A stretch of 64,000 bases of DNA, taken from the NCBI RefSeq assembly GCF_037040815.1, contig NZ_CP146232.1, forward strand, positions 2,846,501 to 2,910,500. Direction: 5' to 3'. Below are positions 23,794-40,761 of this stretch, piece by piece. The notes beneath the pieces were generated by a model, which did not search any database, was not told where the DNA came from, and saw only the letters and a program-made list of their open reading frames with translations. The DNA comes from Pararoseomonas sp. SCSIO 73927. Its GTDB lineage: Bacteria; Pseudomonadota; Alphaproteobacteria; Acetobacterales; Acetobacteraceae. Positions within the stretch are counted from its first letter, which is position 1. The number at the start of each line of letters is the position of its first letter. The position numbers and the translations under genes were made by a program.

Positions 23794-23974
23794 CCCTCGC
23801 CCGGTCAAGCTCGCGCTGCGGGTGGCCTCACCGCCCGGACCGGGACATCGCGGCTGCCGCTCTCGCGAGGCTCGGGGCATCGCCGTCGCCCAGGTGTGTC
23901 GGCCTGACCGGCACGGAGCCCGGTCCTGGTCAGGGCGACGGAGTGGTGGGGTCATGCCGTGAGTAGCATTCTTA

Positions 23975-23991
23975 GAGCCCGCTTCATAACG
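23975..23991 (+). repeat. Left terminal inverted repeat of the IS
   Basis: GAGCCCGCTTCATAACG pairs with the right end with one mismatch (C/T at position 11). If the flanking TTA/TAA bases belong to the element, the repeat is 20 bp. Confidence 0.85.
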
Positions 23992-24802
23992 CCTGAGCCA
24001 GACGCCTGACGAGGACCATGGTGGCGGCGAGGGTGAAGAATGCGATGGCAGAGCTGATGGTGGTCTCGTGGTCGCGGGCGAGGCGTCGACAGCGGCCGAA
24101 CCAAGCGAAGGACCTCTCCACCACCCAGCGCCTGGGTTGGACGGCGAAACCCTTCTGGCCGGGCGCGCTGCCGACGATGGTGATGGCAACCGGCGAGGCC
24201 CATGCCACGCGGGATCCGGTATAGGCGCGGCCGGCGAAGCAGCGGGCCAGGAACGGCCACGGACGGCGCGACATGGCGAGGAGCGCGGCACCGCCCCGGC
24301 TGTCGTGCAGGGAAGCCGGTGAGACGGCGGCCAGCAAGAGCCTGCCGTCGGTGTCCACCAGGGCGTGGCGTTTGCGCCCCGTCACCTTCTTCCCGGCGTC
24401 ATGGCCGCGGACGCCCTTCACGCCGACACCGCCCGAGCGGGCGGACTGAGCATCCAGCACGGCCGCCGTCGGCGAGGCCTCCCGGCCGACACGCTCGCGG
24501 TCGGCCATGGTGAGGGCGTGCGCCAGTCGCTCGAAGGTGCCCGAACGCGAGAGGCGCAGGAACCAGCAATGCACGGTCCCGGGTGGCGGGAAGTCGCGGG
24601 GCAGATGCGCCGGGGCACAACCCGTCCGGAGAACGTCGAGGGTGGAATCGACCAACAGTCGCATCGGCCAGGATCGCGGCCGCCCTGTGTGCGCTGGATC
24701 GGGCAGGAAGGGCTCGACCAGCGCCCACTCGGCATCGGTCAGGCACGTTGCATAGGGCTGGGAACCACGCGCAAGCTGCGCGCGGGCGGCAGGGGTCCAC
24801 AT
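23984..24802 (-). CDS. IS5-family DDE transposase
   Basis: Transposase of 272 residues. The N-terminal DUF4096-like part shows LTDAEWALVEPFLPDP; catalytic acids are in AVLDAQSARSGG, the LVDTDGRLL strand and WVVERSFAWFGRCRRLARDH (Glu). The C-terminus ISSAIAFFTLAATMVLVRRL is usual for the group. Many relatives use a frameshift; this one is a single uninterrupted frame and is probably active. The stop codon lies inside the left inverted repeat. Confidence 0.93.
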   Translation of the reverse strand: MWTPAARAQLARGSQPYATCLTDAEWALVEPFLPDPAHTGRPRSWPMRLLVDSTLDVLRTGCAPAHLPRDFPPPGTVHCWFLRLSRSGTFERLAHALTMADRERVGREASPTAAVLDAQSARSGGVGVKGVRGHDAGKKVTGRKRHALVDTDGRLLLAAVSPASLHDSRGGAALLAMSRRPWPFLARCFAGRAYTGSRVAWASPVAITIVGSAPGQKGFAVQPRRWVVERSFAWFGRCRRLARDHETTISSAIAFFTLAATMVLVRRLAQAL

Positions 24803-24865
24803 GGGCCACCTAGAAGGACGTCAGACACCCTCCGAACGCGCAGAACCGCCGTCGCTCACCTCAGC

Positions 24866-24882
24866 CGTTATAAAGCGGGCTC
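24866..24882 (-). repeat. Right terminal inverted repeat of the IS
   Basis: Reads GAGCCCGCTTTATAACG on the minus strand, 16 of 17 bases identical to the left end. Confidence 0.85.
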
Positions 24883-24884
24883 TA

Positions 24885-25503
24885 ATACATTAAAATTTTT
24901 ATTTGCCCGTATCTACTTGAGGCGACGCTGGAGGTGCCAGATACTCCAGAATTTCCCACGGACATCTTGCCGGACGTCTCCAGAATACTCCGACCTGTTG
25001 CGCGGACTACTTGCGACGCCCACGGAGTGCCGGGGCGAGGCGCCGGTTAATGGGTCAACCCACAGGCGTCATGTCAGTCCATCCATAACCTCACTCTGCC
25101 CAAGCCGGTAACCCATTGATCTGTATTGGTCCCACTTCGGAGTGAGATTTCCCGCCACCCCCCACATCCCAGCTTCAGGCCAGGACTGCCTGCCATAACG
25201 CTGCTCCGGGACATACGCGTGGCGGGCGGACATCCATATTACTGGACGGTTGATGCCCATTACTTGAGAAACCGTCCTGGACGGGTCGGGCGGCGATCTG
25301 GATACTGCCTGATGCCCGATACAGGGTTCGGGAGGCCCGCTGACAGGGACGGTCTCCGGGCATCGGTGTGACGCCGCCCGGCAAGGCTTCGGCCAGCCTG
25401 TGGATTTGTGCGGGCAAGGACCGGCCAGGGGCTTCATGCCAGGCATGCGAGGTCGTCTCCTGGCTTGATCGGCGGCGGGTAGGAGGCGGCAGCCCACGCG
25501 GAT
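24885..25503. other. Intergenic stretch left of the defence island
   Basis: About 620 bases with no credible gene; the first 40 bases are unusually AT-rich. Between 25240 and 25370 several short repeats occur: GGACGGT at 25244 and 25347, its inverse AACCGTCC at 25270 (an 8-bp inverted repeat with 25244), and GATGCCC at 25252 and 25311, with its inverse near 25358. Arrays of short sites are what a Tn7-like transposase binds at element ends, so the island's left end may lie here. I could not fix the terminal bases. Confidence 0.4.
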
Positions 25504-28500
25504 ATGTTCGTCACCGTAGTAGCGAGGTGCTCCAGCTTCATGTCGAGCGGATCAGGAATGACCGCCTCCCCCGCGCCCCTGGAGGTACTCCGGCTAGCAC
25601 TGCTGGCGATGCCCGAAGCCGAGACGCTCGAGAAACTCGCCGCCGCCCTGCTCGGCCGCCTTCTCGATGTGCCGGTCCTTGTCGCCGCGCGGGGATGGCA
25701 GCAGGGGGGGGACGCTGGTACGTCCGGGCGGACCGGACGGCGGCTTAGATTGGAGGCCAAGCGTTACGCGGCAGAATCCTCGCTCCCCCGCCGCGAACTC
25801 CTTGGCCAAGTCGACTACGCGGTGGAACGGGATGCCGCCCTCGAGGCCTGGATCCTAGTCACGACACGGGATGTCCCTGAGCAGGTCGGGGACGACCTGC
25901 GTGCGAAGGGCGAGCGCGAGGGATGCCCGGTCGTCATCCTTGACTACCCGAGAGACGATGTGGGCTTCCTGGCCGCCCTGTGCTCCTCCGCGCCAGACCT
26001 TGTCGAGAAGTACGTCTCCCCGGCAGCAGGGGACGCCGCGCGTGCCCTAACCACTGTGTCGACTTTAGTCGTCGCCCAGCTCCGGCGCGACCTCGAATCC
26101 TGGAACCTCGGCTTCGCATCCCTTCGAAATCGCGCTGCCGCTTTTCTAAGGGAAATGTCGTCCTCTGTGTCAGAGGCCCAGGCCCGTTTTGCCCAGGATG
26201 TCGCGGTCCGCGCCCGCGCGAACCGCATCCGTCGGCAGGCACCTCATGGGGCGTTAAGCGAATGGTGGAGTTCCACACCGTCTACCCTGCCCTTCGTCGC
26301 GCTCGGAGAGGAGGGCGTCGGGAAGACCTGGGCCATAATGGACTGGGTAGTCGAGAGACTTGACGACCTGCCGATCGTGGTGGCCATCCCGGCGCCCTCG
26401 CTCGGCGTGGACGACTTCTCGTCTGCCCTGGCGGTCAAGCGCCTCCTCGCGACCCGCCTGCGCGAGATGACGGATGGCGCCCGCGACGAACCCTACTGGC
26501 TCAAGCGGGTCGAACGCATCCTGTCCAGCCCGCTTGAAGAGGGTCCCGGGTTCCTCCTGTTCTTCGACGGAATGAACCAAAGGGCGGAACTGGACTGGAT
26601 CCAGCTCCTCAGAATTCTCCAGGCTAAACCCTTCGCGGAACGGGTGCGCGTGATCTGCACCACGCGGATGCACCATCTGACCGATCGCCTCGCCGAACTT
26701 CGAGGACTGACTACCGGGCCTACGACAGTCGAGGTCGCGCCGTTCGGCACCGAGGAAGGTGGCGAACTAGACAAGATGCTTGCTCTCGAGGGCATACCGC
26801 CCGATGGGCTGGGACCCGGCCTCCGAGAGGTGGCCTCCAATCCACGGCTCTTCCAATTGGCCGTTAAGATGAGAAGCAGCCTCCGTGACGTCCGTGAGGT
26901 GACGGTCCACCGTTTACTCTGGGAGTATGGACGCGACACTCTCGGTGTCCGTGCGGGGCGGTCGTTCAGCCCGGCGGAATGGGCGGACTGGCTCGCCAAG
27001 GTGGCTGCTGACTACCGCAGGGAGATCACCAACTATTCCTCCAGGGATATCGGCGCTGCCGTCGTAAGGGCTGACCTCTCGCCGGAAGCAGTCTACGCGC
27101 GGCTGAGCGACATCGTCGACGCTCCCTTGACCCAGCGGGTTGCCGACGATCGCTTTCAGCCGTCGCCGCTGCTGGCCCAGCAGGCGCTGGGTCTGGCCCT
27201 CGTCAAGCATCTCGGGGAAATGGCGACCTGGGGGGCAGAGGCGATCGATGCGGCGCTGCATGCCTGGATCGGCCCGATCGCCGCCCTCACGGCGGCGCCA
27301 GAGGTATTGAGAGCGGCCGCATCAATCGCTGTCGCGCGCCGCGACCACGTGCCCTCGTCCGTCATGGGTTCCATTCTGACGGCTTGGCTCCAGTCACAGA
27401 ACCTGCCGGAGGCGCATCTCGAGGAACTGCAGGGGATCGCGCCGGACCTAATCCCTGAACTCCTCACTGTCGTGGAACAATCCACCGGACGAGCGTCGGT
27501 CTCCATCCGGATCGCAGCCATCAACCTGTTGCGCTGCATTCCTGAAAACGATGCTCGTTTCGCGGTCGAAGTCTCCCCACGCTGCACCCGGTGGCTTGCG
27601 ACCATCTCTCGGGGAGTCAGTCATTTCTATTCCCAGCATGAGATGCTGGAACGCAGACGCCATGACAGGCTCGTGGGCCTAGTCGGCCATGACGTTTCGG
27701 GGCCTGCGGTCGTGCTCGGACAGGATGTCCGGTTCGTCGATTTTGACGACGGCACTCTCCTGTCAGCGATCCCCTCGATCATCGAGGGACGTCGCCTGTC
27801 GGAATGGGAAGGCCTGCTCCGCATGGCCGCGATCGTCCGGGTGGTTCGCGGGGACGACACGGGCTGGCAGGGACTCCGCTGGCTTTGCATCCTGAACGAA
27901 GCAGATCCCGCCGAGACGACCGTACTCCTACGTCGACTTGCAACCGAAATGGCGGAGCGGACGGCGGAGCCGGAACAGGACGCCTCGTTGCCCGCGCGTG
28001 TTGCAGCAGTCCTTCTTGAACTCACGGGAGACGAGGTGGACGAAATCAGATCTTTTCAGCTAAGCGAGGGGCCATTCGCCGACTCGCCCGCGGGGCAGAG
28101 TGCGATCATGCTCGAGCATCGCGCTCTGCAACATGTCTCGCGAGGGCTGGCTGCCGAAAGTCTGTTGGACCGAGAGAAGTCGATCGGTGATCGAGTGCGG
28201 CGGCATGCAGATCTTTGGCTCGACCCCACCTTCGACACCCCGCCTGAGTTCGCTGCCGAGTTACGCGACCACGTCCTGGATCAACTCCGCGACCATCCTG
28301 CCGTCGCCCGCTGGTATCGGGAGCAGGTTCGTCTCGGTGGCCTGATCGTGCCGCTCGCCCGTATCGCTCCCGATCTTCTCGCGGAAATCGTAAGGACCTT
28401 CCTCCACCGGCTCGGATCGACGCCGCCCGAAGGGAGATACGAAGCCGCGTCCCGGGTCCCGGGTCTCCATCTGCTTGTCGATGAGAGCGCGCGGCGGGAG

Positions 28501-30207
28501 GCAGAAGCGTTGCGGAGGGGCGGGAGCGAGAAGGACGACAACAATGAAGGCATCGCGGCAGGAGACCTGCTCACGGCCGAGATGCGTGGTCGGTCCGCGC
28601 TCGACCAGATCGCCCTCTTGGTCGAGGCCGACCTTCGATACGTGCCGCTCGACCTAGCCGCACCTCTCACGATCCCCTCCTCATCGGATCTCATTGAGCT
28701 CGTCACGCGGTACCGGGAGGATAAGCCAGATCGGCAGAAGACGTTGCTTGTGCTGATCTCGGAGATCGGCGTTCCGCTTGAGGGCGAGGTTTTGCAGTGG
28801 GTCGAAGCGTTCAGGGCGAGCGAGGATCTCAACGTTCGCGGCGCCGCGTTCCGGGCAATCCACCGATCGGACCCAGCGTCCTTCGGCGCGAGGCTCCTCG
28901 CGGAGGACTGGACCTGGAGTCCGACTGAGGAGTTCTGGGTAAACCACTATGGCAGCGAGGCTATCCTGGCCGCAGCGTCGAACCAGCCGTTCCACGAAAT
29001 CGCGCACCGCGTCGCTCCCTGGATGCTTCTTCAGGCCACACGAACGAGGGGGGCACGTCCTTCCGAGGTTCTGCTTGCCGCCTCGATCATCGGTCGAGTT
29101 CTCCGTGCCGAGCACGGCGGCGACGTCGAACCCGGCGCGGAGATCAGAGTCCAGGAGGGCGACGTCGAGCGGGGGACGATGTTCCAGGTCGTGACGACTG
29201 GTGATGGTGGACCGACGGGCGATGACGCGCGACGCCTGTCGGCAATCGTGGGGAACCCAGCCGCAGAACACGAGGCGCGCCTCAGGACGGCCGAGATCGC
29301 CTTCGAGCGGATTAGGGCGGCCCGGCAAAATGGTGCCGAACTCTTCGCCTTCTTCTTTCCCTCCGACGACTTCGAGGGCGTCCTCGATCACGCGCCGGAC
29401 GTCGTTGAAGGCTGGCTCGACGGCATGGAGCAGATCACCGACGCGTTCCGATCGCGGGTGAGGGCTGCCGATGGTGCCTACATCGCCCTGTGCGGCGCCC
29501 TGCTGTGCAAGCGTCCCGAGAAGGGCGTCACGCTCTGGCATGCCCTCCAGAGGGCGGTCAGGACGAATTACATCGGGGCATCCGGCGTCGAGGAACTGCT
29601 CCATGTCGTTTTCCGGGCGCCGGACTCCGTGGCCGTCGAGGCACTACGCGCTGATGTTGTCGGTCTGCGCTACGCCAGAACGGACGCCTGCCTCATGCGC
29701 GTCGCCGTCGCAGCCTTGGCGAACGGCAGGAAGGACTGGCTCGAAGCGGTAGTCGCCGACGATGCGCGATCGCCGCTCGTCTGGCGTCGTAGACGCGGAC
29801 TAGTGCTTCAAGGCTTCTCGACTGACGCATCCCTCGCCGTTCCGCAAGCTTGGCCCAACGATCCGCCAGTTGGGTCATGGGCACGGTTGCGCCACCGTTC
29901 AGGGATGGCACTGTCGCTTGAGGCATCTGCCTGTCACTGGTGGGCCTTGCTGAGAGGCGCCCGAACCGAAGCGGCGGGCTTCGCATCTTGGATCCTGTTC
30001 CAGTCATCTGCCGATAGACGTGCATGGACGGCCATGAGGCGAGATCCCCTTCCTGCAGAACGAACCGGCCATCCGACCGATACGATTGCGACCCATGTCG
30101 AGATTAACCGTGAGACATTGAAGCTCGCGATAGAAAATAGGAGCAAAGGGCTGGACAAAGTCTACCTTGGTCTTCCGGTCATCGAGGGCATTGGTCCTTG
30201 GACATAG
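25504..30207 (+). CDS. Mrr-like nuclease + STAND NTPase + long helical C-terminus (Avs-like candidate defence protein)
   Basis: Protein of 1,567 residues. Residues 20-170 resemble an Mrr-type PD-(D/E)XK nuclease: Asp70 in QQGGDAGTSG, then Glu84 and Lys86 in LRLEAKRYA, then helix EQVGDDLRAKGEREGCPVVI. A P-loop NTPase follows: Walker A GEEGVGKT (268-275), Walker B FLLFFDG (Asp355), and sensor-like VICTTR (388). The remaining ~1,100 residues are helical-repeat-like with no other recognisable domain. Nuclease-STAND-repeat is the architecture of Avs-type antiphage proteins, where the C-terminus senses a phage protein and the nuclease kills the cell. Start ATG 25504 is uncertain; 25540 and 25558 are alternatives. 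It converges on the TniB gene. Family membership is inferred from domain order only. Confidence 0.8.
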   Translation: MFVTVVARCSSFMSSGSGMTASPAPLEVLRLALLAMPEAETLEKLAAALLGRLLDVPVLVAARGWQQGGDAGTSGRTGRRLRLEAKRYAAESSLPRRELLGQVDYAVERDAALEAWILVTTRDVPEQVGDDLRAKGEREGCPVVILDYPRDDVGFLAALCSSAPDLVEKYVSPAAGDAARALTTVSTLVVAQLRRDLESWNLGFASLRNRAAAFLREMSSSVSEAQARFAQDVAVRARANRIRRQAPHGALSEWWSSTPSTLPFVALGEEGVGKTWAIMDWVVERLDDLPIVVAIPAPSLGVDDFSSALAVKRLLATRLREMTDGARDEPYWLKRVERILSSPLEEGPGFLLFFDGMNQRAELDWIQLLRILQAKPFAERVRVICTTRMHHLTDRLAELRGLTTGPTTVEVAPFGTEEGGELDKMLALEGIPPDGLGPGLREVASNPRLFQLAVKMRSSLRDVREVTVHRLLWEYGRDTLGVRAGRSFSPAEWADWLAKVAADYRREITNYSSRDIGAAVVRADLSPEAVYARLSDIVDAPLTQRVADDRFQPSPLLAQQALGLALVKHLGEMATWGAEAIDAALHAWIGPIAALTAAPEVLRAAASIAVARRDHVPSSVMGSILTAWLQSQNLPEAHLEELQGIAPDLIPELLTVVEQSTGRASVSIRIAAINLLRCIPENDARFAVEVSPRCTRWLATISRGVSHFYSQHEMLERRRHDRLVGLVGHDVSGPAVVLGQDVRFVDFDDGTLLSAIPSIIEGRRLSEWEGLLRMAAIVRVVRGDDTGWQGLRWLCILNEADPAETTVLLRRLATEMAERTAEPEQDASLPARVAAVLLELTGDEVDEIRSFQLSEGPFADSPAGQSAIMLEHRALQHVSRGLAAESLLDREKSIGDRVRRHADLWLDPTFDTPPEFAAELRDHVLDQLRDHPAVARWYREQVRLGGLIVPLARIAPDLLAEIVRTFLHRLGSTPPEGRYEAASRVPGLHLLVDESARREAEALRRGGSEKDDNNEGIAAGDLLTAEMRGRSALDQIALLVEADLRYVPLDLAAPLTIPSSSDLIELVTRYREDKPDRQKTLLVLISEIGVPLEGEVLQWVEAFRASEDLNVRGAAFRAIHRSDPASFGARLLAEDWTWSPTEEFWVNHYGSEAILAAASNQPFHEIAHRVAPWMLLQATRTRGARPSEVLLAASIIGRVLRAEHGGDVEPGAEIRVQEGDVERGTMFQVVTTGDGGPTGDDARRLSAIVGNPAAEHEARLRTAEIAFERIRAARQNGAELFAFFFPSDDFEGVLDHAPDVVEGWLDGMEQITDAFRSRVRAADGAYIALCGALLCKRPEKGVTLWHALQRAVRTNYIGASGVEELLHVVFRAPDSVAVEALRADVVGLRYARTDACLMRVAVAALANGRKDWLEAVVADDARSPLVWRRRRGLVLQGFSTDASLAVPQAWPNDPPVGSWARLRHRSGMALSLEASACHWWALLRGARTEAAGFASWILFQSSADRRAWTAMRRDPLPAERTGHPTDTIATHVEINRETLKLAIENRSKGLDKVYLGLPVIEGIGPWT

Positions 30208-30252: not shown

Positions 30253-31221
30253 CTACCCATCCTCCGGCAGCCGGAACCCCTCACCGTACTGTCTGATCGC
30301 CGCCTTTAGATCCTGGACCTCGAAGGGATTGAAGCGGAGGTCGCCCCAGCTGTTCCGCATGCGCTCCACCGCCGCCGCCAGGACCTCGGTGGTCAGCTTG
30401 GAATGCTTGAGCCTGCGGGCTTCCTGGCGGGCGTTGGTCAGCAGGTTCTCCAGCAGGCCGAGACGGCCCCCGCACGCGACGAGCAGGCGCGCCGCCTTGT
30501 CCGGCTCGGACAGCCCGGACGCGAGCGGCATTCCGAGCGCCTCCTCGAAGGACTGGAGCACGAACTGGAACGTATCGAAGCTCTGCGGATCGCTGGACGA
30601 GTAGGGCTTCAGCGGGTCTGCGGCGAACAGGCGTCCACCGAGGAACCCGTTCTCCCGGAGGATGGACGAGAAGCGGTCGTAGCCGATCAGGACCATCGGA
30701 CAGCGGGTGCCGTCCATGACCAGGGTCAGCCAATGCGAGCCGTTGTCCCGGACACGCTTGGTGTCGGAACTCGTGAGGTGGTGGACCTCGTCGTAGACCA
30801 CGACGTCGTAGGCACCCTCCCCGATCATGTCGATGACAGCCTGCGTCTGCGCGTGAGGCTTACCAGCGAAGGGTGCGGGATGCCCCAACCCATGCAGGGT
30901 CTGGGACGGGATGGTGGCGAGGCGGGTGCCCGGCTGGAGTCGAACGTAAAGATACTTCAGGGGGCGCCGGACGACGTCCTCGCCCTCCCGGTCCTCGGCA
31001 TCCCCCTCCATGCACCGCCGAAGGTACTCCTGGACCAGGAGCGTCTTGCCGCAGCGTGGAGGGCCAAGCACGGCGATGCCGCGCCCGTTGGTCGGCGTCC
31101 GGGGGCTGTCGAACAGGTCGTCCAGGCCTCGGAAGACCGCCTTCGTCTCCAGGGTGTCGACGAAGACGTGCCCCAGGGAGTCAGAGGGCAGATCGCTCGT
31201 GTCGAGGAAGTCCCGCATCAA
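30253..31221 (-). CDS. TniB/TnsC-type AAA+ transposition ATPase
   Basis: Target-selection ATPase of 322 residues that would recruit and regulate the transposase. Walker A is GPPRCGKTLL, Walker B is YDVVVYDEVHHLT, and sensor-like VLIGYDRF follows, all as in TniB/TnsC. The C-terminus is a helical lid plus FEVQDLKAAIRQYG. Its ATG overlaps the transposase stop by 4 bases, so it is translated with it. No TniQ/TnsD target-site protein follows; the next gene is the convergent nuclease-STAND gene. Confidence 0.92.
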   Translation of the reverse strand: MMRDFLDTSDLPSDSLGHVFVDTLETKAVFRGLDDLFDSPRTPTNGRGIAVLGPPRCGKTLLVQEYLRRCMEGDAEDREGEDVVRRPLKYLYVRLQPGTRLATIPSQTLHGLGHPAPFAGKPHAQTQAVIDMIGEGAYDVVVYDEVHHLTSSDTKRVRDNGSHWLTLVMDGTRCPMVLIGYDRFSSILRENGFLGGRLFAADPLKPYSSSDPQSFDTFQFVLQSFEEALGMPLASGLSEPDKAARLLVACGGRLGLLENLLTNARQEARRLKHSKLTTEVLAAAVERMRNSWGDLRFNPFEVQDLKAAIRQYGEGFRLPEDG

Positions 31222-33359
31222 CGGGGCTTCCCATCCCGCCGCCGGACAGACAAGCCCTTGCCGAACTCGGCAGACACCGCACCGTCACCCGTCGAGGTCT
31301 TCCCGGACGTCGCGGGAGGTACAGGATCCGTGGAAGAAGGCAGCTTCGCCGGGGTCGCGACACCCAGGGTAGACTGGAGGTCGTCGCCGGTGGGTCCCTC
31401 CGCCACCTCGTTCAGGCGCGCGACCGTGTACTCGGCCTGCTTGACCTTCTTCTCCAGCCGCCCCTCCGCCCGCACGCGGTCGGTCAGCTTGGGGCTGGCG
31501 GCATCGTCCTCAAGGGTCTGGCGGGCAGCTTCGCGGGCGGACGTCCACTCCGGGTCGTCGTTCGCGAAGGCGTCCGGGTTCTGGCGGCGCAGCGCCCGCG
31601 CGAGGCGATACTCCAGCAGGGTCAGACCCTCGACACGGGGGCGGTGCTCCGGGCAGATCGTCGCGACATGCCAGCGCTCCTCGGAAAGTTCCGTGACGCG
31701 GGCATCCAGGAAGGAGATGGTCGTCAGGTCCCCCGGATCGCGCCGCACGACCACCTCGCGGTCGCTCGGAGACGTGGCCTTCATCTCCATACGCAGGCCG
31801 TGCGGGGTCAGGTAGCGCAGCTCGTCGACGACGATGCCTCCTCGGCGGATCCTGCGGCCGACCGAGAGCGAGGTCGCGTTAATAATGTCCGCCCGGGTCA
31901 GGGGCATGCGCTGGTCGTGGTCCTTCATGCTCCTCTCCCACATGTTCAAGGGCGTGTCCTGGATGCCGCGATGGGGACGGCGCATGTACTCGTTCAGGAG
32001 CCAGCCAAGGAGCTTGATCTCCGCCTCCTCCAGGGTCGCCTCGGCGACCAGCTCCGGCGCGATCTCGTCGGCGTCTCGGTCGTAGAAGTTGGAGCGAGTG
32101 GACCCCGCCACGAGATGGAAGACCTCCCGCATGGCGGTCCCGAACACGCGTTCGACCGTTCCCTTGTACCAAGCCTTGAGTCGCGGGAGGGTATGGTGAG
32201 GGATCCCGAGGCGCATCATGGACGCTTTGAAGCCCTTCGAGTTGTAGGGCTTTCCCTGATCCACGTGGATCTCGTCCGGACGTCCCTGGGCGGGCCAGAA
32301 CTTGCCCAGACCCGGTTCGCGCCCGGAGAAGAACTTCTTGGGCAGCATGGCGAGCCGGACTGCCTCGAGCGCCGTCTCGGTATCGGGCGGCGAGAAGGTC
32401 AGCACGTAGCTCATGATCATCCGGGTATGCCGGTCGATTACGAAGGTCAGCCACGGGCGCCCGATGACGGTCTTGCCGTCCTTGCCAAGGCAGATGAGGT
32501 CGACGCGGGTGTCGTCGATCTCCCAGATCTCGTTGGCATGGGTGGTCAGCCATCCACCCTGATCGAGGCGGAATCGTTCGTCGGCTACCGTCTTGCCTTC
32601 ACGGCAGAACACCAGCGTGTACGCGCAGATGCGCTTCACGTGGGCGTTCACCGCTTCGTAGCTCGGCTCGGCATGCCGGGCCTCGGGGGCGAGATCCGCG
32701 TTCTTCTTCTCGATCTCCTTGCCGATCGCGCGATGCAGCTTCGCGATCGAGACGCCGTTCAGCTTGAGGAAGATGGCATCCGTCACCTGCCACATGATCT
32801 CGGTGACCGTCGCACTGAGACGGGTTCGGTAGTTCCCGCGGAATCGCTGCTGGGTGACGATCGCGTCCGCCTTCTCTCCCCCCATCTTCCAGATCCGGAT
32901 GAGCTGGCGCAGGCGGCTCCCGGACATGCACAGCGGCTCGGCGAACTTGCGCTTGTCCTTCGCGGCCTTCTCCACGCGGCGGGCATGGACGACCTCGCAG
33001 AGCTTCTTCAGCTCCTTGTCCGTCCTGGGAACATGCTGGTTGTTCACCCACTCCATGACGTACTCGTGGGCACGCTCGACCAGGAACCGCTCCTTTTCGG
33101 TTGCGCTGTCATAGGTGACGCGAGCACGACGGATCTGCCGGTCGCCTCCCACAGTGGCGACGGAGACACCGGACCAGTCGCGGAGGCGGTCCTCGGCGCG
33201 GGCGAGGATCACCTCGTCAGGAGGCAGCGCGTAAGGGATCCGGTTCTCGTCCTCGAAGACGTAGGAACGGTCGGCGTCCTTCGCGCGGTAGCGGAAGGCG
33301 ATGGTGGCGCCGCCGTAGACGAACATCTGGCCGGGCAGGATCGTGACGGAGGGCGTCAT
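31218..33359 (-). CDS. TnsB/TniA-type DDE transposase
   Basis: Retroviral-integrase-fold transposase of 713 residues from ATG 33359, an 8-codon-longer start (33383) being possible. The catalytic triad is readable: Asp282 in WEIDDTRVD, Asp367 in IHVDQGKPY and Glu403 in AWYKGTVERVFGT, giving a D-35-E spacing. The N-terminal 270 residues contain helix-turn-helix-like DNA-binding segments; after residue 500 come the Mu-type beta-barrel region and a disordered Pro/Thr-rich tail that probably contacts TniB. ATGA overlaps link it to both neighbours. Confidence 0.93.
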   Translation of the reverse strand: MTPSVTILPGQMFVYGGATIAFRYRAKDADRSYVFEDENRIPYALPPDEVILARAEDRLRDWSGVSVATVGGDRQIRRARVTYDSATEKERFLVERAHEYVMEWVNNQHVPRTDKELKKLCEVVHARRVEKAAKDKRKFAEPLCMSGSRLRQLIRIWKMGGEKADAIVTQQRFRGNYRTRLSATVTEIMWQVTDAIFLKLNGVSIAKLHRAIGKEIEKKNADLAPEARHAEPSYEAVNAHVKRICAYTLVFCREGKTVADERFRLDQGGWLTTHANEIWEIDDTRVDLICLGKDGKTVIGRPWLTFVIDRHTRMIMSYVLTFSPPDTETALEAVRLAMLPKKFFSGREPGLGKFWPAQGRPDEIHVDQGKPYNSKGFKASMMRLGIPHHTLPRLKAWYKGTVERVFGTAMREVFHLVAGSTRSNFYDRDADEIAPELVAEATLEEAEIKLLGWLLNEYMRRPHRGIQDTPLNMWERSMKDHDQRMPLTRADIINATSLSVGRRIRRGGIVVDELRYLTPHGLRMEMKATSPSDREVVVRRDPGDLTTISFLDARVTELSEERWHVATICPEHRPRVEGLTLLEYRLARALRRQNPDAFANDDPEWTSAREAARQTLEDDAASPKLTDRVRAEGRLEKKVKQAEYTVARLNEVAEGPTGDDLQSTLGVATPAKLPSSTDPVPPATSGKTSTGDGAVSAEFGKGLSVRRRDGKPR

Positions 33360-34054
33360 GCGGCGCCTCCCTCGAAGCCGCATAGGCTGACCGTCGATGC
33401 CGCTAGGCCTCCAACGTCCAGGCCGAGAAGGAGGCGACGCCGCATGCCGAGCACGCAGGCCTGTGCCATGCGGAGCACGCCGTCCTCGCCGGAGGTCCGG
33501 ATCTGCCCCAGGGTCATCCGGCCGCCATGACGCCCGATCAGACCACGGAGCTGCTCGGCATCTTCGGCAGGCACCGACGTGCCGACGTAGCGGGCCATCT
33601 GCCGCGCGATGACGACCTTGCGATCCGTGGCGAGATGGATCTCCCGCATCCGTACGAGACGGATACCACGCGCATCGAGCGCCTCCTCCAGGAGGTGGTC
33701 GAAGTCCATGGCGATCCGGTCGTCCATGTCATGGTCGTGGACCACGTCGATGGCGACCTGGCTTCCGTCCATGGTCGTGAAGCCCATGGCGGGCCAGTAC
33801 TCGAACGGCTGGCTCCATCCCGCCCGCAGAGTTACCTTGAACGGCCAAGGGCCGTAGGAGACGGCGCCGTGCGTCACCTCGAGAAGACCCCCGAGGCGGG
33901 CTTGGCTGGGGGTAGTCCAGGTGGTGGGGTAGCCGAGCTTCTCGCTCGGTGCGCGACCCATCAGGTTGCGGTGGCGGCACCGGAGGACGAAGGGCGGCGG
34001 GTCGTCCTGAACGGGGACGGGGCAAGGGGCTGAGGATTGAAGGGCGGGGTACAT
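33356..34054 (-). CDS. Second TnsA-like protein with degenerate nuclease site
   Basis: 232 residues. The layout resembles TnsA: a segment LGGLLEVTHGAVSYGPWPFK, then FEYWPAMGFTTMDGSQVAID where active TnsA has a PDF...VEVK core, then a C-terminal winged-helix-like region (GGRMTLGQIRTSGEDGVLRM, RRRLLLGLD) like the TnsC-binding part. The Asp and Lys expected in the nuclease core are replaced (Ala in WPAMGF, Asp-Val-Val in AIDVV), so it is unlikely to cut DNA. It may be a structural partner of the active TnsA encoded just upstream. Start ATG 34054 or 33961. Assignment is by weak pattern plus position. Confidence 0.6.
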   Translation of the reverse strand: MYPALQSSAPCPVPVQDDPPPFVLRCRHRNLMGRAPSEKLGYPTTWTTPSQARLGGLLEVTHGAVSYGPWPFKVTLRAGWSQPFEYWPAMGFTTMDGSQVAIDVVHDHDMDDRIAMDFDHLLEEALDARGIRLVRMREIHLATDRKVVIARQMARYVGTSVPAEDAEQLRGLIGRHGGRMTLGQIRTSGEDGVLRMAQACVLGMRRRLLLGLDVGGLAASTVSLCGFEGGAA

Positions 34055-34187: not shown

Positions 34188-34952
34188 TCAGAAGCCGCCG
34201 GACGTCGCGCCCGGACGCGGCGCGCGGACCCGCGTGTCAGGGCCGAGCGGAGCGGTGTGGATGTCTGCCGCCAGCCCGCCCTGGCCGACGAGCGCGACGA
34301 GCGAGGTCATCGGGCAGTCCAGCTGCTCGCTGATCTGGCCCAGGGTCTCGGCACCCGAACCGACGGATTGCAGGACCGCCCGACCGACGCTCTCGGTGAT
34401 GATCCGGTCGGCATGGCGCCAGATCGTCTGGGCATTCGATGCGCGCGGCTCCTGGAGGAGCCAGCCGGGAAACCGGATCCGGTAGTGGATGTCGATCTCG
34501 TCGAGGGCGCAGTGCAGCGAGACCAGCCGATCGAGGACCTCGGCGCGGAGCGCGGGGTTGGCCTTGCACTCCCACATCTCGAGCTGCCCATCGACCGTCT
34601 CGATCGCGACATCGGGGTAGGCGTTGCAGACCTTGCCCTTGTGCAGGAAGCGCACCTGGACTGCCTGAACGCTGAAGTGGAGAACCCATTCGGCGACATC
34701 GGCCAGCAGCAGTGCGCGGTGCTCCTTGCGGGATTCCACGACGAAGGCGGCCTTCATCTTGTTGCTCGGAAAGGAGCCGGTGATCGCCCCATGGGAGTAG
34801 CTCGCGGCCGTCCGGGCCGTTCCCCGGCTGCGGATGGCATCCCGCAGCGTTGCCCGTGCTTCGGCAGGAGACTGGTCAGCGAAGGTGCCGGAACGATGCC
34901 GGGCGATGCTGAACGGGGAGTTGTCCAGGTGCGTAAGGACGTTGACGGGCAT
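34188..34952 (-). CDS. TnsA-like transposon endonuclease
   Basis: Predicted 5'-strand-cutting subunit of a Tn7-like transposase, 254 residues, with strong AAGGAGA before ATG 34952. The PD-(D/E)XK residues are visible: Glu73/Glu77 in VVESRKEHRALLL, Asp114 in AYPDVAIET, and Glu128-Cys-Lys130 in MWECKANP. The C-terminal winged-helix-like part (AETLGQISEQLDCPMTSLVA ... ADIHTAPLGPDTRV) matches the TnsC-contact domain. It is the first gene of the transposition operon, 134 bases before the second TnsA-like gene. With an active TnsA, transposition should be cut-and-paste. Confidence 0.78.
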   Translation of the reverse strand: MPVNVLTHLDNSPFSIARHRSGTFADQSPAEARATLRDAIRSRGTARTAASYSHGAITGSFPSNKMKAAFVVESRKEHRALLLADVAEWVLHFSVQAVQVRFLHKGKVCNAYPDVAIETVDGQLEMWECKANPALRAEVLDRLVSLHCALDEIDIHYRIRFPGWLLQEPRASNAQTIWRHADRIITESVGRAVLQSVGSGAETLGQISEQLDCPMTSLVALVGQGGLAADIHTAPLGPDTRVRAPRPGATSGGF

Positions 34953-35262
34953 AGGTCTCCTTTGTCGCCTCGAGGGCGATCTCCGATGTCGCGGAATGGG
35001 GATGACCTGACGCAGGGACGTACGTCGCCGAGCGTCGCGGGGTGCGACGCTGGCTCGGTCCTGCCCTGGTTGTCAGATCAGTGGAGGGATGGGCCGCGGG
35101 GGCGGCCCCTCTTCACTCGCCCGCTATCGTGGCGGGGGCGAAGGAGGCTCCCCGCATCTCGTGGGCGGGGGCCTCGTGCTGGTCAGCTCGATGGCTCATG
35201 TCCATCGTGATGGAGCCCTTTCCGGAATCGTGGAAGAAAGACTTGAGGGGTTCGGGCAAACT
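34953..35262. other. Intergenic stretch between tnsA-like and abiEii genes
   Basis: 310 bases, GC-rich, no gene. It should carry the tnsA promoter. No ACA trinucleotide is present on the plus strand, so a conventional TGT...ACA Tn7 end is not located here. The last 40 bases before the toxin stop are AT-richer (CTTTATTTTC). Confidence 0.5.
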
Positions 35263-36261
35263 TTATTTTCGGCCGACCCCCATCATCACTATTGCGGCTT
35301 TCCGGAAATCTGATCTCGCCACCGTGTCGGGGTGCCACGTCCGCCCTGGCCGACGAGCCGTCGTCGCCACCCAGCCGGTCCCCGGTTCCCACCCCGTCCC
35401 GAGGTCGGCCCCATGTCGGAGTGCCTGGAGGACCGGGACCAGGAACCGCGCCAGGCTCCCCAACGTGGCCGCCAGGCTCCTGGGCCGGGCATCTGGCCCC
35501 GCCGTCCCGGACAGGTCGGCCCATCGGGCTTCATCGGCTGGCGTCACGCGGCGAGGGTTGAAGGCGCCTTGCCAGTAGCCGTCGTCACGGCCGAGCATTC
35601 GGGCGGCATCCCGTCCCTCGAACACAGCCGCCATCGCGTCGACCAGGGCTGACCCGTCGAAGCGGATCCGCCGCGAGAGGAGCCGGAGGTCGAAGACGTC
35701 CTGGAGGCGCGTGTGGTCGGCCCCGTACGTCACGAGCAGGGCGGCCTTCTCGGCCACGATCTCCTCGGCCGGGCAGCACGCTGCCCAGATCGAGGCCGAC
35801 CGTGTGGAACGGGAGCGCAGGGGGCGGAACTCAATCTCCGAGACGGCCGTGCGCGCTACCGTGACGTCGATCCGGAGGTCGAGCCGTCGCCTTCCCAGCC
35901 ACGCCGGTATGCTGATCCGGTGGAGGGGAGACCGGCGGGCGGCCTTGGTGCGGACCCGCACGTCGGCCCAGTCCAGGAGCAGGCCGCGAGGGCACGGTCC
36001 CAGGGCCGACTGCAGGGCTTCGACTACCTCGTCCGCGGATCCGCGCCCTCGATCCAGGAGATCGATGCCCTGCGTCGGCCGCGGCAGCTCTCCGATCCAT
36101 GCCCCGACCGCCCACGCCCCATGCAGGGGAAACCGGGCGCGGTATGGGGAGGTGCCCAGCTCCGTGATGGCGATCTCCGCCGCCGCGTGGGCCAGGTCGT
36201 CGCTGCCCGGCAGACCCCCCGTGGCCGAGGGACATCCTCCCCAGGAGGTCCCGTCGGCCAT
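35263..36261 (-). CDS. AbiEii-family nucleotidyltransferase toxin
   Basis: Type IV toxin of about 332 residues. The most diagnostic part is AEEIVAEKAALLVTYGADHT followed by RLQDVFDLRLLSRRI, as in AbiEii/AbiGii proteins, which carry a nucleotidyltransferase fold and modify tRNA or other targets to stop growth on phage infection. The N-terminal GSxxD-like motif expected in the fold reads GIDLLDRGRGS, with RLDLRIDVT as the strand that carries the later acidic residue. ATG 36261 shares one base with the antitoxin stop (TGATG), so they are coupled. Last gene of the AbiE operon. Confidence 0.8.
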   Translation of the reverse strand: MADGTSWGGCPSATGGLPGSDDLAHAAAEIAITELGTSPYRARFPLHGAWAVGAWIGELPRPTQGIDLLDRGRGSADEVVEALQSALGPCPRGLLLDWADVRVRTKAARRSPLHRISIPAWLGRRRLDLRIDVTVARTAVSEIEFRPLRSRSTRSASIWAACCPAEEIVAEKAALLVTYGADHTRLQDVFDLRLLSRRIRFDGSALVDAMAAVFEGRDAARMLGRDDGYWQGAFNPRRVTPADEARWADLSGTAGPDARPRSLAATLGSLARFLVPVLQALRHGADLGTGWEPGTGWVATTARRPGRTWHPDTVARSDFRKAAIVMMGVGRK

Positions 36262-36854
36262 CACGACGGCGCACTCACGCTGGGTAGCAGGATATCCAGA
36301 ACCAGCCGAGCCGGGTGGGGGATACGGACAGAGTCCGCCATCTCTCGGATCGCCTCAAGGCTCCCGCCGCTGGCGACATAGGCCTTGAGGCAACGCGCGG
36401 CCGTTGCCGGGCCACCCAGGTGACGGCCATAGCGGGCCAGGTCCACGACCGTTCGCTCCCTGGTCGTGCATAGAATGGTGACGTCACAGTAGAGGAACTG
36501 CTCGACCCCGGCCTCGAAGCTCGGCCGGTTGCTCCAGCGAAGCGTGCGAAGGGCAGATGGATCGCGCTTGGGGACGTGCGCCTTTATAGGAGCCGCCAGC
36601 CATAGTGGGCCATCGGCGTGAGGCAGAAGGCCATGGATCTCGGCCGCCGATACCAGACAGATCACGGCACCTCGGTTCCTGGGATAGTGGTCCCGGATCG
36701 CCTGGGCGATCGCTTCGAGGTGGACCGTTGGAGGCCCTGGCCTTTCGTCCTGGCCAGGGGCGCATCCCTGTGCTGGGCGGAAGAGATCCGGCTGTGCAGG
36801 CTTTCGGAAGAGCGGTTCGGACCACCACGCCCTGCTGTCGCTTGCCCAGTCCAT
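36261..36854 (-). CDS. AbiEi-like antitoxin lacking the N-terminal winged helix
   Basis: 197 residues. The C-terminal antitoxin domain is clear: VICLVSAAEIHGLLPHADGP, then SFEAGVEQFLYCDVTI and RTVVDLARYGRHLGG. It is a paralogue of the gene at 36995. Unlike that one, it has no DNA-binding winged helix; the first 45 residues are Pro/Arg-rich and unlike any AbiEi, and other frames do not restore the domain. It may still neutralise the toxin but probably cannot repress the promoter. Coupled to the toxin by TGATG. Confidence 0.75.
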   Translation of the reverse strand: MDWASDSRAWWSEPLFRKPAQPDLFRPAQGCAPGQDERPGPPTVHLEAIAQAIRDHYPRNRGAVICLVSAAEIHGLLPHADGPLWLAAPIKAHVPKRDPSALRTLRWSNRPSFEAGVEQFLYCDVTILCTTRERTVVDLARYGRHLGGPATAARCLKAYVASGGSLEAIREMADSVRIPHPARLVLDILLPSVSAPS

Positions 36855-36994
36855 CGTCGGCTCTCCCTTTCATTCTGGGATCGTGACGTGCGGGAGGTAC
36901 GGAGGTCGACTCAAAATTTAGCAGATTATTCCGTGCGGCCGGGCAGGCGCATTCCTTGTTCCTGGCCTCTGGTCCAGGGCGAGGCAGGGATGTC

Positions 36995-37657
36995 CTACCG
37001 ACGGTGACCGGGCGCGGGCTGCAGGTCGCCCAGGGCCGCTGTCAGCGCACGCACCGTCCTGGAGGGAGCCGCCACCTCCTCAGCCACCCTGAGCAGGGCG
37101 GGCTGCTCCCCACCTTGACGCAGATATCGGTCGGCAGCCCGGAGACTGGCGTCCTCGCCCTGGAGGTGGCGGGCGTATCGGAACAGGTCGACGACCGTTC
37201 GCGCGGCAGACGTGTGCCGTACGGGTACTCCGCAGACCTCCGCCTCGATCACACCTGCCTCGAAGGCCGAGGGATGGCTCCAGTGGAGCACCTGCTCCCG
37301 CCTGCTTCCCTGCTTGGGAGGATGTGATCCCACGGGCAGTGCAAGCCATGTGACATCAGGGAGAGCGTCGGCGAGGTCGCACAGGTATGCCGCGGACAGT
37401 AGGCACACCACCGCCCGTGGTGCCCTCGCACATGCGACGGCGATGGCGAGCAGCTCGGGCGGTGCCGTCGTTGAAGCAGCATGGTAGGCACCGGGAGCTG
37501 CTCTCGTGATCACGCCCGCCCTCACGGCATCGGAGATAGCCTGGGGCTGCACACCCTCCGCGATGAGCTGCGCCGACCGGCGGACGCATCCATCCGACAG
37601 GAGCCGTTCCAGCATGGCTCGCTGCGACATGCCCTCAGGTGGTCGAGCACCTGACAT
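36995..37657 (-). CDS. AbiEi-type antitoxin/repressor, full length, without its own toxin
   Basis: 220 residues from ATG 37657 (37630 is an alternative). An N-terminal winged helix (MLERLLSDGCVRRSAQLIAE, then GVITRAAPGAYHA) precedes the antitoxin domain VVCLLSAAYLCDLADALPDV and RTVVDLFRYARHLQG. AbiEi proteins repress their own operon and counter AbiEii by an indirect, type IV mechanism. No toxin directly follows; the next gene is the shortened paralogue, then the toxin. Possibly the pair has divided repression and antitoxin roles. Confidence 0.8.
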   Translation of the reverse strand: MSGARPPEGMSQRAMLERLLSDGCVRRSAQLIAEGVQPQAISDAVRAGVITRAAPGAYHAASTTAPPELLAIAVACARAPRAVVCLLSAAYLCDLADALPDVTWLALPVGSHPPKQGSRREQVLHWSHPSAFEAGVIEAEVCGVPVRHTSAARTVVDLFRYARHLQGEDASLRAADRYLRQGGEQPALLRVAEEVAAPSRTVRALTAALGDLQPAPGHRR

Positions 37658-37923
37658 GGATCCCCTACGAGAAATGCTGTCCTGCGCGGAAATATTGGTT
37701 CCTGTCGGGAACGACCGCAACAGTCCTCTGTAATGACCCTCAAGGACGCCGGAGGATCGCCACCGAATCCTTCAGCCTCCAGTCCGACGTCCGAGGAACG
37801 GCTTATGAGTCCTGCAGGAAGGATTCGTGCCGTCTCGCCCGGGCAATCGTCACCGTCTGCGCCGGAGGGACTGTACCCACCGCGATCCCGAGGAGGCCGC
37901 ATGCCCTCACGACCCGTGGCGGG

Positions 37924-38157
37924 TCAGCCGCGGACATCCAGCCATGCCAGGACAGTCGCCAGTCCTTGCGAGACCTGGACAAGACGGCCGCCGGGCAGGA
38001 GCAGGAGTGCTCCTCCATCGTCCTCGCACACTGCTGCGACCGACAGGGGCGAGATGGCGTGCAGGACGCCCGCGACATCCCGGATCAGCACGTAGCGGCC
38101 GATGCGGGATCCCTCCTCCAGGGGTTCGACGTGACGTCCGGCGAGCAGCGTGCTCAC
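37924..38157 (-). CDS. Small protein of unknown function (77 aa)
   Basis: Starts with GTG overlapping the protease stop (GTGA), so it is translated with the M41 protease. It is acidic to neutral, beta-rich by appearance (RIGRYVLIRDVAGVLHAISP, GGALLLLPGGRLVQVSQ) and has no signal peptide or membrane helix. I recognise no family. Its tight coupling suggests a partner, adaptor or inhibitor of the protease, which is inference. Confidence 0.6.
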   Translation of the reverse strand: MSTLLAGRHVEPLEEGSRIGRYVLIRDVAGVLHAISPLSVAAVCEDDGGALLLLPGGRLVQVSQGLATVLAWLDVRG

Positions 38158-40433
38158 GACAGGCCGTCCACGACATCGCTGGCGGGTGCCCGCAACGACA
38201 GCATGGCCTCCACCTCCTGACCTGACAGGTGTCCCATCTCGACGAGAGCAGCAGCCACACGCTCGACGGCGTCACGGTGCTTCCGGACGAGGTCCAGGGC
38301 TTCCGCATAGCCCTGCGAGATGACGGCACTGACCCGGTGGCGGATCTCCGGTACGAGCAGGAGATGCCCCAGCCGTACCGGATCATCGGCAGGGGCAAGG
38401 AATAGTAGCGCTTCAGGGTGGTCATCCAGGCCGGACGATACCACGATCGCGCAGGCCAGCTGCGTCGCGCGCGCGAGATCCGAACCCTGGGAACCGCCAG
38501 CGCCACCGCTCGGGGCGCCAAGAAGCACTTCTTCTGCGGCGCGCCCTGCAAGGATCGCGCGCAGCTGTTCGCCGACGTCCCGCCTCGTTGCGTAGGGCAT
38601 GCCGCGCACGAGTTCGGCAATGTCAACGGTGGTCGAGGAGAGGCCGCCCACCGTAGGCTCGACGACCACCTGTTCCACGAGGCAGACGCCGAGCGAAGCA
38701 AAGCCGAGAGCGTGCCCCGCCTCGTGGGCCGCCATCCGCCGGACTGCATCTGGATGATGCACCGATGGCGCGGGTCCGACCTCCTGGATGAGATCGTCCA
38801 CGACCATCAAGCGGCCTGCTGCTCTGGCTCGGCGCCTTGCTCCACGGCACCAGCGTTCGATGTCAGCACCTACAGCCTGCCGGAGAGCAGCCGTCCTTGC
38901 GACGGGCAGGAGGTCCTCCGTCTGGAGAGCGCCGTGGAGATGGACGCGCAGGATCTGCTGGAGAGCAGGCGCATCGGGTCGGTCCAGCCGGATGATGCGT
39001 TCCAGACGTCCCGCCCGGGTCATGGCAGGATCGAGGTTGGACGCGTCGTTGCACGTGGCGATGACCACTACGCCGTCCCGCTTGACGGCCCCATCAAGCT
39101 GCTCGAGCAGCCCATTGATGACTTCTACGACGTAGTCCCGGTGCTTGTGCGTCACAGATGCGCGGCTGGGAAACGAGTCAACCTCGTCGATGAGGATGAT
39201 CGCTGGCGCCTTCCGCCGCGCCTCGTCGAAGGTAGCCTTCATTGCGCTCAGTAGGTGCCCGAGATGCCCCTCGCGAGCGCCCTGCCACTGCGCGAGGGAT
39301 GCGCTGACCAAGGGCACCCCGGCCGATCCTGCCAACGCCCTGGCAAAGCTCGATTTCCCACAGCCCGGCGGTCCCTCGAGGATCACGCCACGATCCACAT
39401 CCGACCAGTCGAGTTCCCCGCGCGCGAAGGCAGTCAGATCCGTGACGAGCTGTCGTCCCCAGGCCGTGGCTTCACCCTGTCCGGGCAGGTCGTCTAGGGT
39501 CAACGTCGATTCCTGCTTCGCCGCGGCGAGACGTGCCTTGGACCTGTCGACCAAGGTGCAGAGACGGCCAAGGAAGGTCGCTGCATCCTGTCCTCTCCGA
39601 TGAGCCAGGTTCACAAGAATAGGCGACACGTCCGTCCCGTCCGGGGACGATCCGGTGACATCGGGCAGGCAGCACAATGGGACGGTTGCACCCGTTTCCA
39701 GGGCGGCCGCCAGCAGCGCCAGGACACCGCTGCCAGGAGGCTCCACCACCAGCCTTGCGTCCTCGGCGAGCAGGATGTCAGGCGAGAGCAGCGTGTCAGG
39801 AGCATGCGAGAGGACGTGGATGGCTGTCCCTCGGCCAACGGCATCGCGGAAGACTTCGACATTGTGCGCAGGGCGTACAGGCAGGTCGAAGATCTGGAAC
39901 TGGTCGGGGCCGCGGAGATCCCTTGACGGTGACGACGCACTGGAACGGGCGTCCTGACGACTGATCCCGGACGTACCCAAGGCCGGTGCCCTGCTGTCGC
40001 TCTTGGGAGGGGTGTCGAGTGCTTCGACCACCAGATCCAAGGCCCGTGCGACATTCCTTCCCCACAGCACATCGGGAACCTGGATGATGCTGACTGTGCC
40101 GGGCTGCATGGCACCGGTCAGGAAGTCAGGCGCCTGCAGCAGGGCATCCCGGAGCATGAGCAGAGCGCACAGCGTCGCTGGTTCATGCTCGAGCGATCGA
40201 CGGAGTGGATCGACCTCCGGCCCGACCTGGCCCCACGGCTCGACTGCGCCCTCGGCCACCTCGGGACCTGGTGAACGCATACTCCGAGGGCGTCTCGTGG
40301 TCCCGCTGTCACGGCCGGGGGCGAGCATCAGGTCATCGTCGTCGTAGACTGCCCGGAGAAGGTCGGCAGAGATCCCTTCCAGTGCTGCCTCGACGGACGA
40401 AACGGCGCCTGACTGCTTGACCCTACGCGGCAT
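38154..40433 (-). CDS. FtsH-like AAA+ / M41 metalloprotease without membrane anchor
   Basis: ATP-dependent zinc protease of about 759 residues. The AAA+ module has Walker A EGPPGCGKSS (354-361) and Walker B IILIDEVDS (Asp416, Glu417), then CNDASNLDPAMTRAGRLERI with the arginine-finger region. The M41 site is AAHEAGHALGF (HEAGH 570-574), with the third zinc-ligand region near GSDLARATQLA. The N-terminal 340 residues are not the two-helix membrane anchor of FtsH but a soluble, largely unrecognised region. It probably degrades a specific cytosolic target within this island. ATG 40442 is an alternative start; both overlap the DUF6634 gene. Confidence 0.88.
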   Translation of the reverse strand: MPRRVKQSGAVSSVEAALEGISADLLRAVYDDDDLMLAPGRDSGTTRRPRSMRSPGPEVAEGAVEPWGQVGPEVDPLRRSLEHEPATLCALLMLRDALLQAPDFLTGAMQPGTVSIIQVPDVLWGRNVARALDLVVEALDTPPKSDSRAPALGTSGISRQDARSSASSPSRDLRGPDQFQIFDLPVRPAHNVEVFRDAVGRGTAIHVLSHAPDTLLSPDILLAEDARLVVEPPGSGVLALLAAALETGATVPLCCLPDVTGSSPDGTDVSPILVNLAHRRGQDAATFLGRLCTLVDRSKARLAAAKQESTLTLDDLPGQGEATAWGRQLVTDLTAFARGELDWSDVDRGVILEGPPGCGKSSFARALAGSAGVPLVSASLAQWQGAREGHLGHLLSAMKATFDEARRKAPAIILIDEVDSFPSRASVTHKHRDYVVEVINGLLEQLDGAVKRDGVVVIATCNDASNLDPAMTRAGRLERIIRLDRPDAPALQQILRVHLHGALQTEDLLPVARTAALRQAVGADIERWCRGARRRARAAGRLMVVDDLIQEVGPAPSVHHPDAVRRMAAHEAGHALGFASLGVCLVEQVVVEPTVGGLSSTTVDIAELVRGMPYATRRDVGEQLRAILAGRAAEEVLLGAPSGGAGGSQGSDLARATQLACAIVVSSGLDDHPEALLFLAPADDPVRLGHLLLVPEIRHRVSAVISQGYAEALDLVRKHRDAVERVAAALVEMGHLSGQEVEAMLSLRAPASDVVDGLS

Positions 40434-40761
40434 GGCCACCATCCGACCGCTGGTTGCCGAGCGCATAGTAGCGGGACAGCGTCCTTGCCCAGCCCTGGGT
40501 GGTGCTGATGGCCCAGATCTCCGTCGTGTGCACGGATCCATCGGGCAGCCGGGGATGACCGACCAGATTGCCGACCATCGTCGTCATCGTCCTCTGACTG
40601 AACTGCCACCGATCCAGCACGGGGGCGCTGTCGAGTTCCGAGGCGGTGGGAGCGGTGCCCTCGGCGATGGCGCGGAGGTCGCGTGCCAGGGCGGCGAGAC
40701 GGTCCGCTTCCAGGAGGAGGAGCAGGCGTGCGTGTTCCCGCCCGGGATGGACGTGAATCAT
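40423..40761 (-). CDS. DUF6634-like protein
   Basis: 112 residues. The arrangement LLLLEADRLAALARDLRAIA, TASELDSAPVLDRWQFSQ, LVGHPRLPDGSVHTTEIWAI and GWARTLSRYYALG matches the uncharacterised DUF6634 pattern I know from alphaproteobacterial accessory regions. It is the first gene of the protease operon and its end overlaps the protease start. Function unknown. Confidence 0.65.
   Translation of the reverse strand: MIHVHPGREHARLLLLLEADRLAALARDLRAIAEGTAPTASELDSAPVLDRWQFSQRTMTTMVGNLVGHPRLPDGSVHTTEIWAISTTQGWARTLSRYYALGNQRSDGGHAA

Follow-up and report, generated by a model that had tools for sequence, protein, structure and literature searches.

Bacterial Avs proteins directly bind a phage protein such as a terminase or a portal, the portal in the case of Avs4 according to the title of PDB entry 8dgf, and animal NLR proteins, among them NLRC4, NOD2 and NLRP3, differ from the protein described here in their leucine-rich repeat C-termini and other effectors. 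Similar to it by description are bNACHT25 and bNACHT32, clade 6 bacterial NACHT proteins that, in the available text of their report, join a PD-(D/E)XK DNase to a NACHT domain, need the nuclease for defence and degrade DNA on activation (PMC12169576). The 64,000-nt stretch of Pararoseomonas sp. SCSIO 73927 analysed here (contig NZ_CP146232.1, positions 2,846,501 to 2,910,500; hereafter the window) holds a gene for a 1567-residue protein which, judged from its motifs and predicted structure, is probably a nuclease–STAND–solenoid defence protein, Avs-like in its likely working and a novel form among NLR-like proteins. We put at about 0.72 the probability that its product senses infection on its own in the manner of an NLR, equipped with a nuclease and acting in an abortive-infection mode. 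The gene and its parts, in window coordinates, are as follows.

25504 to 30207, plus strand: whole gene, nuclease, NACHT-like STAND nucleoside triphosphatase (NTPase) and alpha-solenoid sensor; the start may be 25540 or 25558
25588 to 25983, plus strand: predicted Mrr-like PD-(D/E)XK nuclease, residues 29-160 (E43, G64xQxG68xD70, E84xK86, Y88), from motifs, model and Pfam matches in relatives
25984 to 26238, plus strand: helical linker between nuclease and NTPase, residues 161-245 (model m3adb8caa8ca3; boundaries approximate)
26239 to 26883, plus strand: NACHT-like nucleotide-binding domain, residues 246-460, from model, fold matches and Pfam matches in relatives
26305 to 26328, plus strand: Walker A GEEGVGKT, residues 268-275, followed by W276, from conservation
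26554 to 26580, plus strand: Walker B LLFFDGMNQ, residues 351-359, where NACHT proteins have DGxDE
26665 to 26667, plus strand: sensor-1 arginine R388 (TTR), from conservation
26884 to 27423, plus strand: helical/winged-helix arm of the NTPase module, residues 461-640 (model; boundary approximate)
27424 to 30204, plus strand: predicted alpha-solenoid sensor, residues ~641-1567, ~930 residues (model m30aa1d39e9c7)
29089 to 29358, plus strand: most variable sensor stretch, residues 1196-1285, with two short strands (mean pairwise identity 0.43)

The reading frame opens with ATG at 25504 and stays open throughout, and a search of the own genome found a single copy of the gene without internal stops. 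We are unsure of the start codon: TAGGAGG lies 17 nt upstream of the ATG at 25504 and GAGGTG 10 nt upstream of the ATG at 25540, and the N-termini of relatives vary, leaving the choice unsettled. A search of 5.8 billion proteins at E ≤ 1e-3, in which 7991 candidates were scored, returned a family of 329 proteins, the window protein and 328 others, from which 120 proteins were listed. For 104 of these 120 the alignment covers 94-100% of the query; in the other 16, mostly near 1480 residues long, the best local alignment spans 73-77% of it. All parts of the three-part protein are conserved together, with the window protein 37-43% identical to the other listed members, three of the 120 bearing the UniRef name 'NACHT domain-containing'. 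The residues singled out in the initial annotation, D70, E84-A85-K86, GEEGVGKT (268-275) and FLLFFDG (350-356), lie at the positions given there, exceed chance and are kept across the family.

The nuclease assigned to the N-terminus is supported by three lines of evidence. E43, G64, Q66, D70 and Y88 are invariant in 27 diverse members and G68, E84 and K86 are kept in at least 90% of them, while the D70, E84 and K86 columns read D/E/K in 119 of the 120 listed proteins, a set that contains the window protein, and in 57 of 61 genome-contig relatives with a frame above 1200 residues. Over both sets, two exceptions read D/Q/K, one V/E/K and one D/E/R, and one lacks the region. In the AlphaFold2 model, strand 81-86 carries both E84 and K86, and the order of elements is that of the restriction-endonuclease fold; the motif set is Mrr-like. 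Among 32 diverse members Pfam Mrr_cat had five matches at E ≤ 1, the best at 0.0015, and it did not match the window protein. Residues 29-160 are thus probably a DNA-cutting, Mrr-like PD-(D/E)XK nuclease. A restriction-like sensor, in which the solenoid or the nuclease would recognise modified or foreign DNA and ATP would gate the cutting as in type IV restriction systems, is an unlikely reading of this domain, as Avs and NLR proteins share the layout of an NTPase followed by a long solenoid, and no partner gene recurs beside the family.

The STAND assignment of the NTPase was upheld as well, and the type is NACHT-like. The P-loop, Walker B motif, sensor-1 arginine and helical/winged-helix arm are arranged as in NLR and AP-ATPase proteins, the arrangement by which STAND NTPases are recognised. 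GKTW is found in 119 of the 120 listed proteins (GKSW in the other) and in all 61 genome-contig relatives, and the sensor-1 arginine in 120 of 120 and 57 of 61, respectively. One AlphaFold2 model was made per protein half (pLDDT 89.3 and 90.6), and in a structure search the N-terminal half resembled Avs4 (portal-bound 8dgf, the best match) and the NACHT modules of NLRC4, NOD2 and NLRP3. Pfam NACHT (PF05729) matched 15 of the 32 diverse members at E ≤ 1, with a best value of 1.6e-9, and AAA_22 matched 23 of the 32; PF05729 gave no match to the window protein. From sequence and model, we file the NTPase as NACHT-like STAND rather than canonical NACHT because the DG is kept but the acidic pair is absent (DGMNQ). 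With its 1567 open codons and intact D/E/K, P-loop and sensor-1 residues, the window copy is very unlikely to be a decayed or inactive passenger, a reading favoured by the presence of the gene in at least two frames at eight of 71 related loci and by departures of the window copy at some conserved positions, such as Q560 (His in 99%).

The C-terminal region was described initially as a very long helical sensor of ~1,100 residues and possibly a new class. Great length and a helical nature are supported by a confident model (m30aa1d39e9c7, residues 540-1567; pLDDT 90.6, predicted template modelling score 0.91) that is nearly all helical; the length is ~930 residues once the NTPase and its helical/winged-helix arm are set apart, and the region has no name in any library tried, but its shape, an alpha-solenoid, is common. 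A structure search with the solenoid gave no specific match, and Avs proteins were absent from its best 50 matches, which excludes nothing. Over 2500 random pairs of the 120 listed proteins, mean pairwise identity was 0.69 in the nuclease, 0.62 in the NTPase, 0.49-0.55 in the sensor outside the insert and 0.43 in the insert (1196-1285). Variability in the sensor thus exceeds that of the NTPase only to a moderate degree, as would fit a conserved ligand without proving one. A group of near-identical loci from Novosphingobium and Sphingobium (L053, L058, L059, L066 and the split L057) matches the window protein by tblastn at residues ~13-698 only, so their sensor is either replaced or strongly diverged. 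Similar sequence is also present on Sphingobium plasmids.

In the mechanism we propose for an NLR-like infection sensor, the solenoid would keep the NTPase module closed at rest until an invader-derived protein, or a host protein reporting infection, engages it. The NTPase would then take up ATP and oligomerise, as NLR and Avs structures suggest, and the oligomer would bring the Mrr-like nuclease domains together, with DNA cut and the infection stopped along with the cell. The nuclease-NACHT proteins bNACHT25 and bNACHT32 are reported to degrade DNA once activated (PMC12169576). By its general kind, the protein looks like a phage alarm comparable to the animal NLR receptors.

The Walker B motif sets the family apart from those receptors. 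According to the portions available of two reports (PMC9633759, PMC7583971), the NLR Walker B reads hhhhDGxDE, and the NACHT clade has a small residue next to the Mg-binding Asp and then acidic residue(s), whereas the window protein has DGMNQ at the place of DGxDE and lacks the acidic pair. The position of the catalytic Glu is occupied by Gln in all 120 listed proteins, as N-Q in 118 and within DGLIQ in two, and by Gln in 45 and Glu in 16 of the 61 genome-contig relatives. In a midpoint-rooted tree of the NTPase region (72 rows, six of them on long branches of unsure placement), a core group of 49 rows including the window protein is all Gln, with a support of 100/100, and the Gln/Glu label needs at least four changes; Gln is therefore also found in some distant lines. 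Because Gln replaces the NACHT catalytic Glu, we propose, with less assurance than the other steps, that the switch may work through binding ATP and hydrolysing it slowly, which would leave it poorly reset once on. In NLRP3, E306Q leaves 0.22 of turnover, gives more ASC specks and is hyperactive, the authors calling its effect on cell death the strongest that their laboratory has seen, but D305A/E306Q, nearer to the double change in DGMNQ, keeps 0.42 of turnover, and G303E, D305A/E306A and a triple change lose inflammasome assembly, both of which weigh against a close parallel (PMC9633759/PMC7583971). PaAvs5 still defends when Gln takes the place of the one acidic residue in a Walker B-like motif, which is a different position (PMC12931631, text available in part). 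We therefore advance only tentatively the idea that the Gln-fixed clade of bacterial nuclease-STAND sensors is a binding-driven, one-way immune trigger, held off by the solenoid and not reset by ATP hydrolysis, since the 0.42 turnover of D305A/E306Q and the inactivity of the other multiple changes in cells lower its odds. At the position whose change makes NLRP3 hyperactive, the family holds both kinds, Gln in all 120 listed proteins and Glu in many distant relatives. It thereby provides a natural comparison for asking if a NACHT-type switch requires ATP hydrolysis, which biochemistry on the Gln and Glu forms could test directly.

An Avs-like architecture, as claimed at the outset, holds in the nuclease-STAND-solenoid order and in the defence genes near some relatives, but membership of Avs1-5, judged by a match to a curated PADLOC or NCBIfam Avs model at E ≤ 1, is not supported: the window protein matches none, which also separates it from Avs4 (AVAST type 4; 8dgf). 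A doubtful but possible alternative is that the family is a remote type of Avs proper, its solenoid directly binding a conserved phage protein such as a terminase or portal. Its N-terminal half has portal-bound Avs4 as its best structural match, two of the 32 diverse members match PADLOC Avs2 at E ≤ 1 (best 3.6e-5), conservation in the sensor is fair (0.49-0.55 outside the insert against 0.62 in the NTPase), and one relative adjoins an Avs4-like protein. The profile of the 32 diverse members also aligns weakly (hhalign probability 29.5%, E 5.7e-4) with an Avs2 homologue (L122) that matches PADLOC Avs2 and the PDB Avs2 entry 9o4e (1.4e-194), placing the family's D355 and N358 at its Walker B DAINE; however, this alignment is limited to the STAND NTPase, the homologue has Glu where the family has Q359, and the core-family profile did not align with it (hhalign 0.2%). 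Against it, the window protein has no Avs model match, and the best 50 sensor matches contain no Avs, although the latter exclude nothing. bNACHT25, moreover, is triggered by way of host DnaJ, which means that proteins of this kind are not confined to direct binding, and bNACHT25 and bNACHT32, likened here by description, differ in their NCH1 helical C-terminal domain (PMC12169576, as far as its available text goes).

The adjoining relative lies on an Azospirillum oryzae plasmid (NZ_CP054617.1; L124), 117 nt after a 1735-residue Avs4-like protein (L124:6556-11763) that matches the Avs4 models of PADLOC at 1.4e-23 and of NCBIfam at 2e-33, with 114.8 bits against a cut-off of 1500. The Avs4 match is confined to residues ~860-1284 of that protein, and the pair is perhaps two NLR-like proteins in tandem.

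The neighbourhoods of relatives point towards defence. Of 33 loci chosen, 32 yielded 200 eligible open reading frames (150-1200 residues, within ~4.5 kb), and 118 of these, drawn at random, matched 335 PADLOC families at E ≤ 1e-10, a count of families and not of proteins, including GajB (1.3e-267), type I restriction-modification, oligonucleotide cyclase and SAVED; genes of Gabija, CBASS or type I restriction-modification systems are found close to some relatives. A control of 103 open reading frames from ten stretches of host relatives matched nine PADLOC families. Beside these known anti-phage genes, the probability is low that the protein is directed at plasmids, transposons or gene transfer agents instead of phages, or that it serves programmed death with some other cause, even with the window copy in a variable stretch, one relative on a plasmid between insertion sequence (IS) elements, and another NLR-like system that controls gene-transfer-agent release, as the available text of PMC13236601 describes. 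A recurrent partner gene was considered and rejected: the largest neighbour cluster spans seven loci at varied distances and the next five, several of them the near-identical Novosphingobium and Sphingobium loci, and none of the clusters printed held a window gene.

Several results weigh against an NLR-like infection sensor. The control is smaller (38,474 vs 49,407 residues) and from other taxa, one protein can match many PADLOC families (GajB alone 29), and Pfam adds carbamoyl-phosphate synthase, HipA-like and transposase genes, two each, among the 118 neighbours. A search of 50,697 phage records (E ≤ 1e-5) brought up no relatives, and 54 pattern matches in viral contigs yielded no confirmed relative. 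At E ≤ 1 the window protein has no match among the Pfam, PADLOC and NCBIfam models, and neither a family profile nor a profile of just the nuclease brought up a relevant PDB sequence.

The distribution of the family is patchy. A scan of an 84,980-species genome collection found 71 related loci, whose labels include Pseudomonadota, Myxococcota, Spirochaetota, Latescibacterota and Nitrospinota; the frame exceeds 1200 residues in 61, is split in eight, lies on a 3-kb contig in one and has no profile match in one. The split genes (L019, L023, L029, L032, L036, L040, L051 and L057) are decayed copies or assembly errors. The window copy is unique among 100 genomes (its own and 99 relatives) and among 385 sampled genomes of the class, and of the 72,556 plasmid records searched 11 hold a match, which in one case extends over at least 80% of the query. 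No publication describing the family was found among the titles and abstract openings listed, and clades of the 2023 bacterial NACHT survey may contain relatives. With hundreds of nuclease-armed NLR-like proteins in several phyla and no name in the libraries tried, the family is sizeable.

The surroundings of the gene in the window include the following features.

23972 to 24885, minus strand: IS4/5-type insertion sequence with 26-nt inverted repeats (92% complementary)
30253 to 31221, minus strand: TniB/TnsC-like ATPase, convergent, 45 nt past the end of the gene
31218 to 33383, minus strand: TnsB-like rve transposase
34188 to 34952, minus strand: TnsA-like endonuclease (NCBIfam NF033179, E 5e-7, 29.4 bits vs cut-off 110)
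35263 to 37720, minus strand: AbiE-type neighbours, AbiEii-like at 35263-36264 and two AbiEi-like at 36261-36854 and 36995-37720

The proposal that the gene is defence cargo of a Tn7-like island is not supported. The window has no TniQ, the two TniQ matches of the genome lying ~116 kb and ~57 kb outside it, and no convincing pair of terminal repeats was recognised between 23800-25510 and 34900-35700 (14-mers, two mismatches), with 36 weak 15-mer repeat pairs towards 40300-43200. TnsB-like sequence occurs in one of 72 related stretches (the 71 loci and L124) and TnsA- or TnsC-like sequence in none. The Tn7 link is adjacency alone, and cargo status is unproven. Synteny with three genus relatives is lost at or just before 23854 and the match of one other relative resumes from 43139 (1.9 kb); between these breakpoints lie the IS4/5 element, the 1567-residue gene, the TnsC-, TnsB- and TnsA-like genes, the AbiE genes and an FtsH-like protease. 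No empty site was seen, because no relative compared spans both flanks. The GC content is 0.63-0.67 over the gene, 0.70-0.73 at 18-22.5 kb and 0.65-0.71 on the right side.

A 232-residue frame between the TnsB- and TnsA-like genes (33356-34054) has a TnsA-like model as its best match (E 0.091). Outside the window, the same genome holds a second TnsB-like gene (27% identical; G000:C1:2726549-2730078); with a TniQ match close by, this looks like a Tn7-like element of its own. In the AbiE-type locus, the two AbiEi-like genes precede the AbiEii-like gene. The FtsH-like protease (38154-40541), a 795-residue AAA and M41 peptidase scoring 178 bits against an FtsH cut-off of 600, shows weak similarity to the anti-phage ATPase IetA/IteA.
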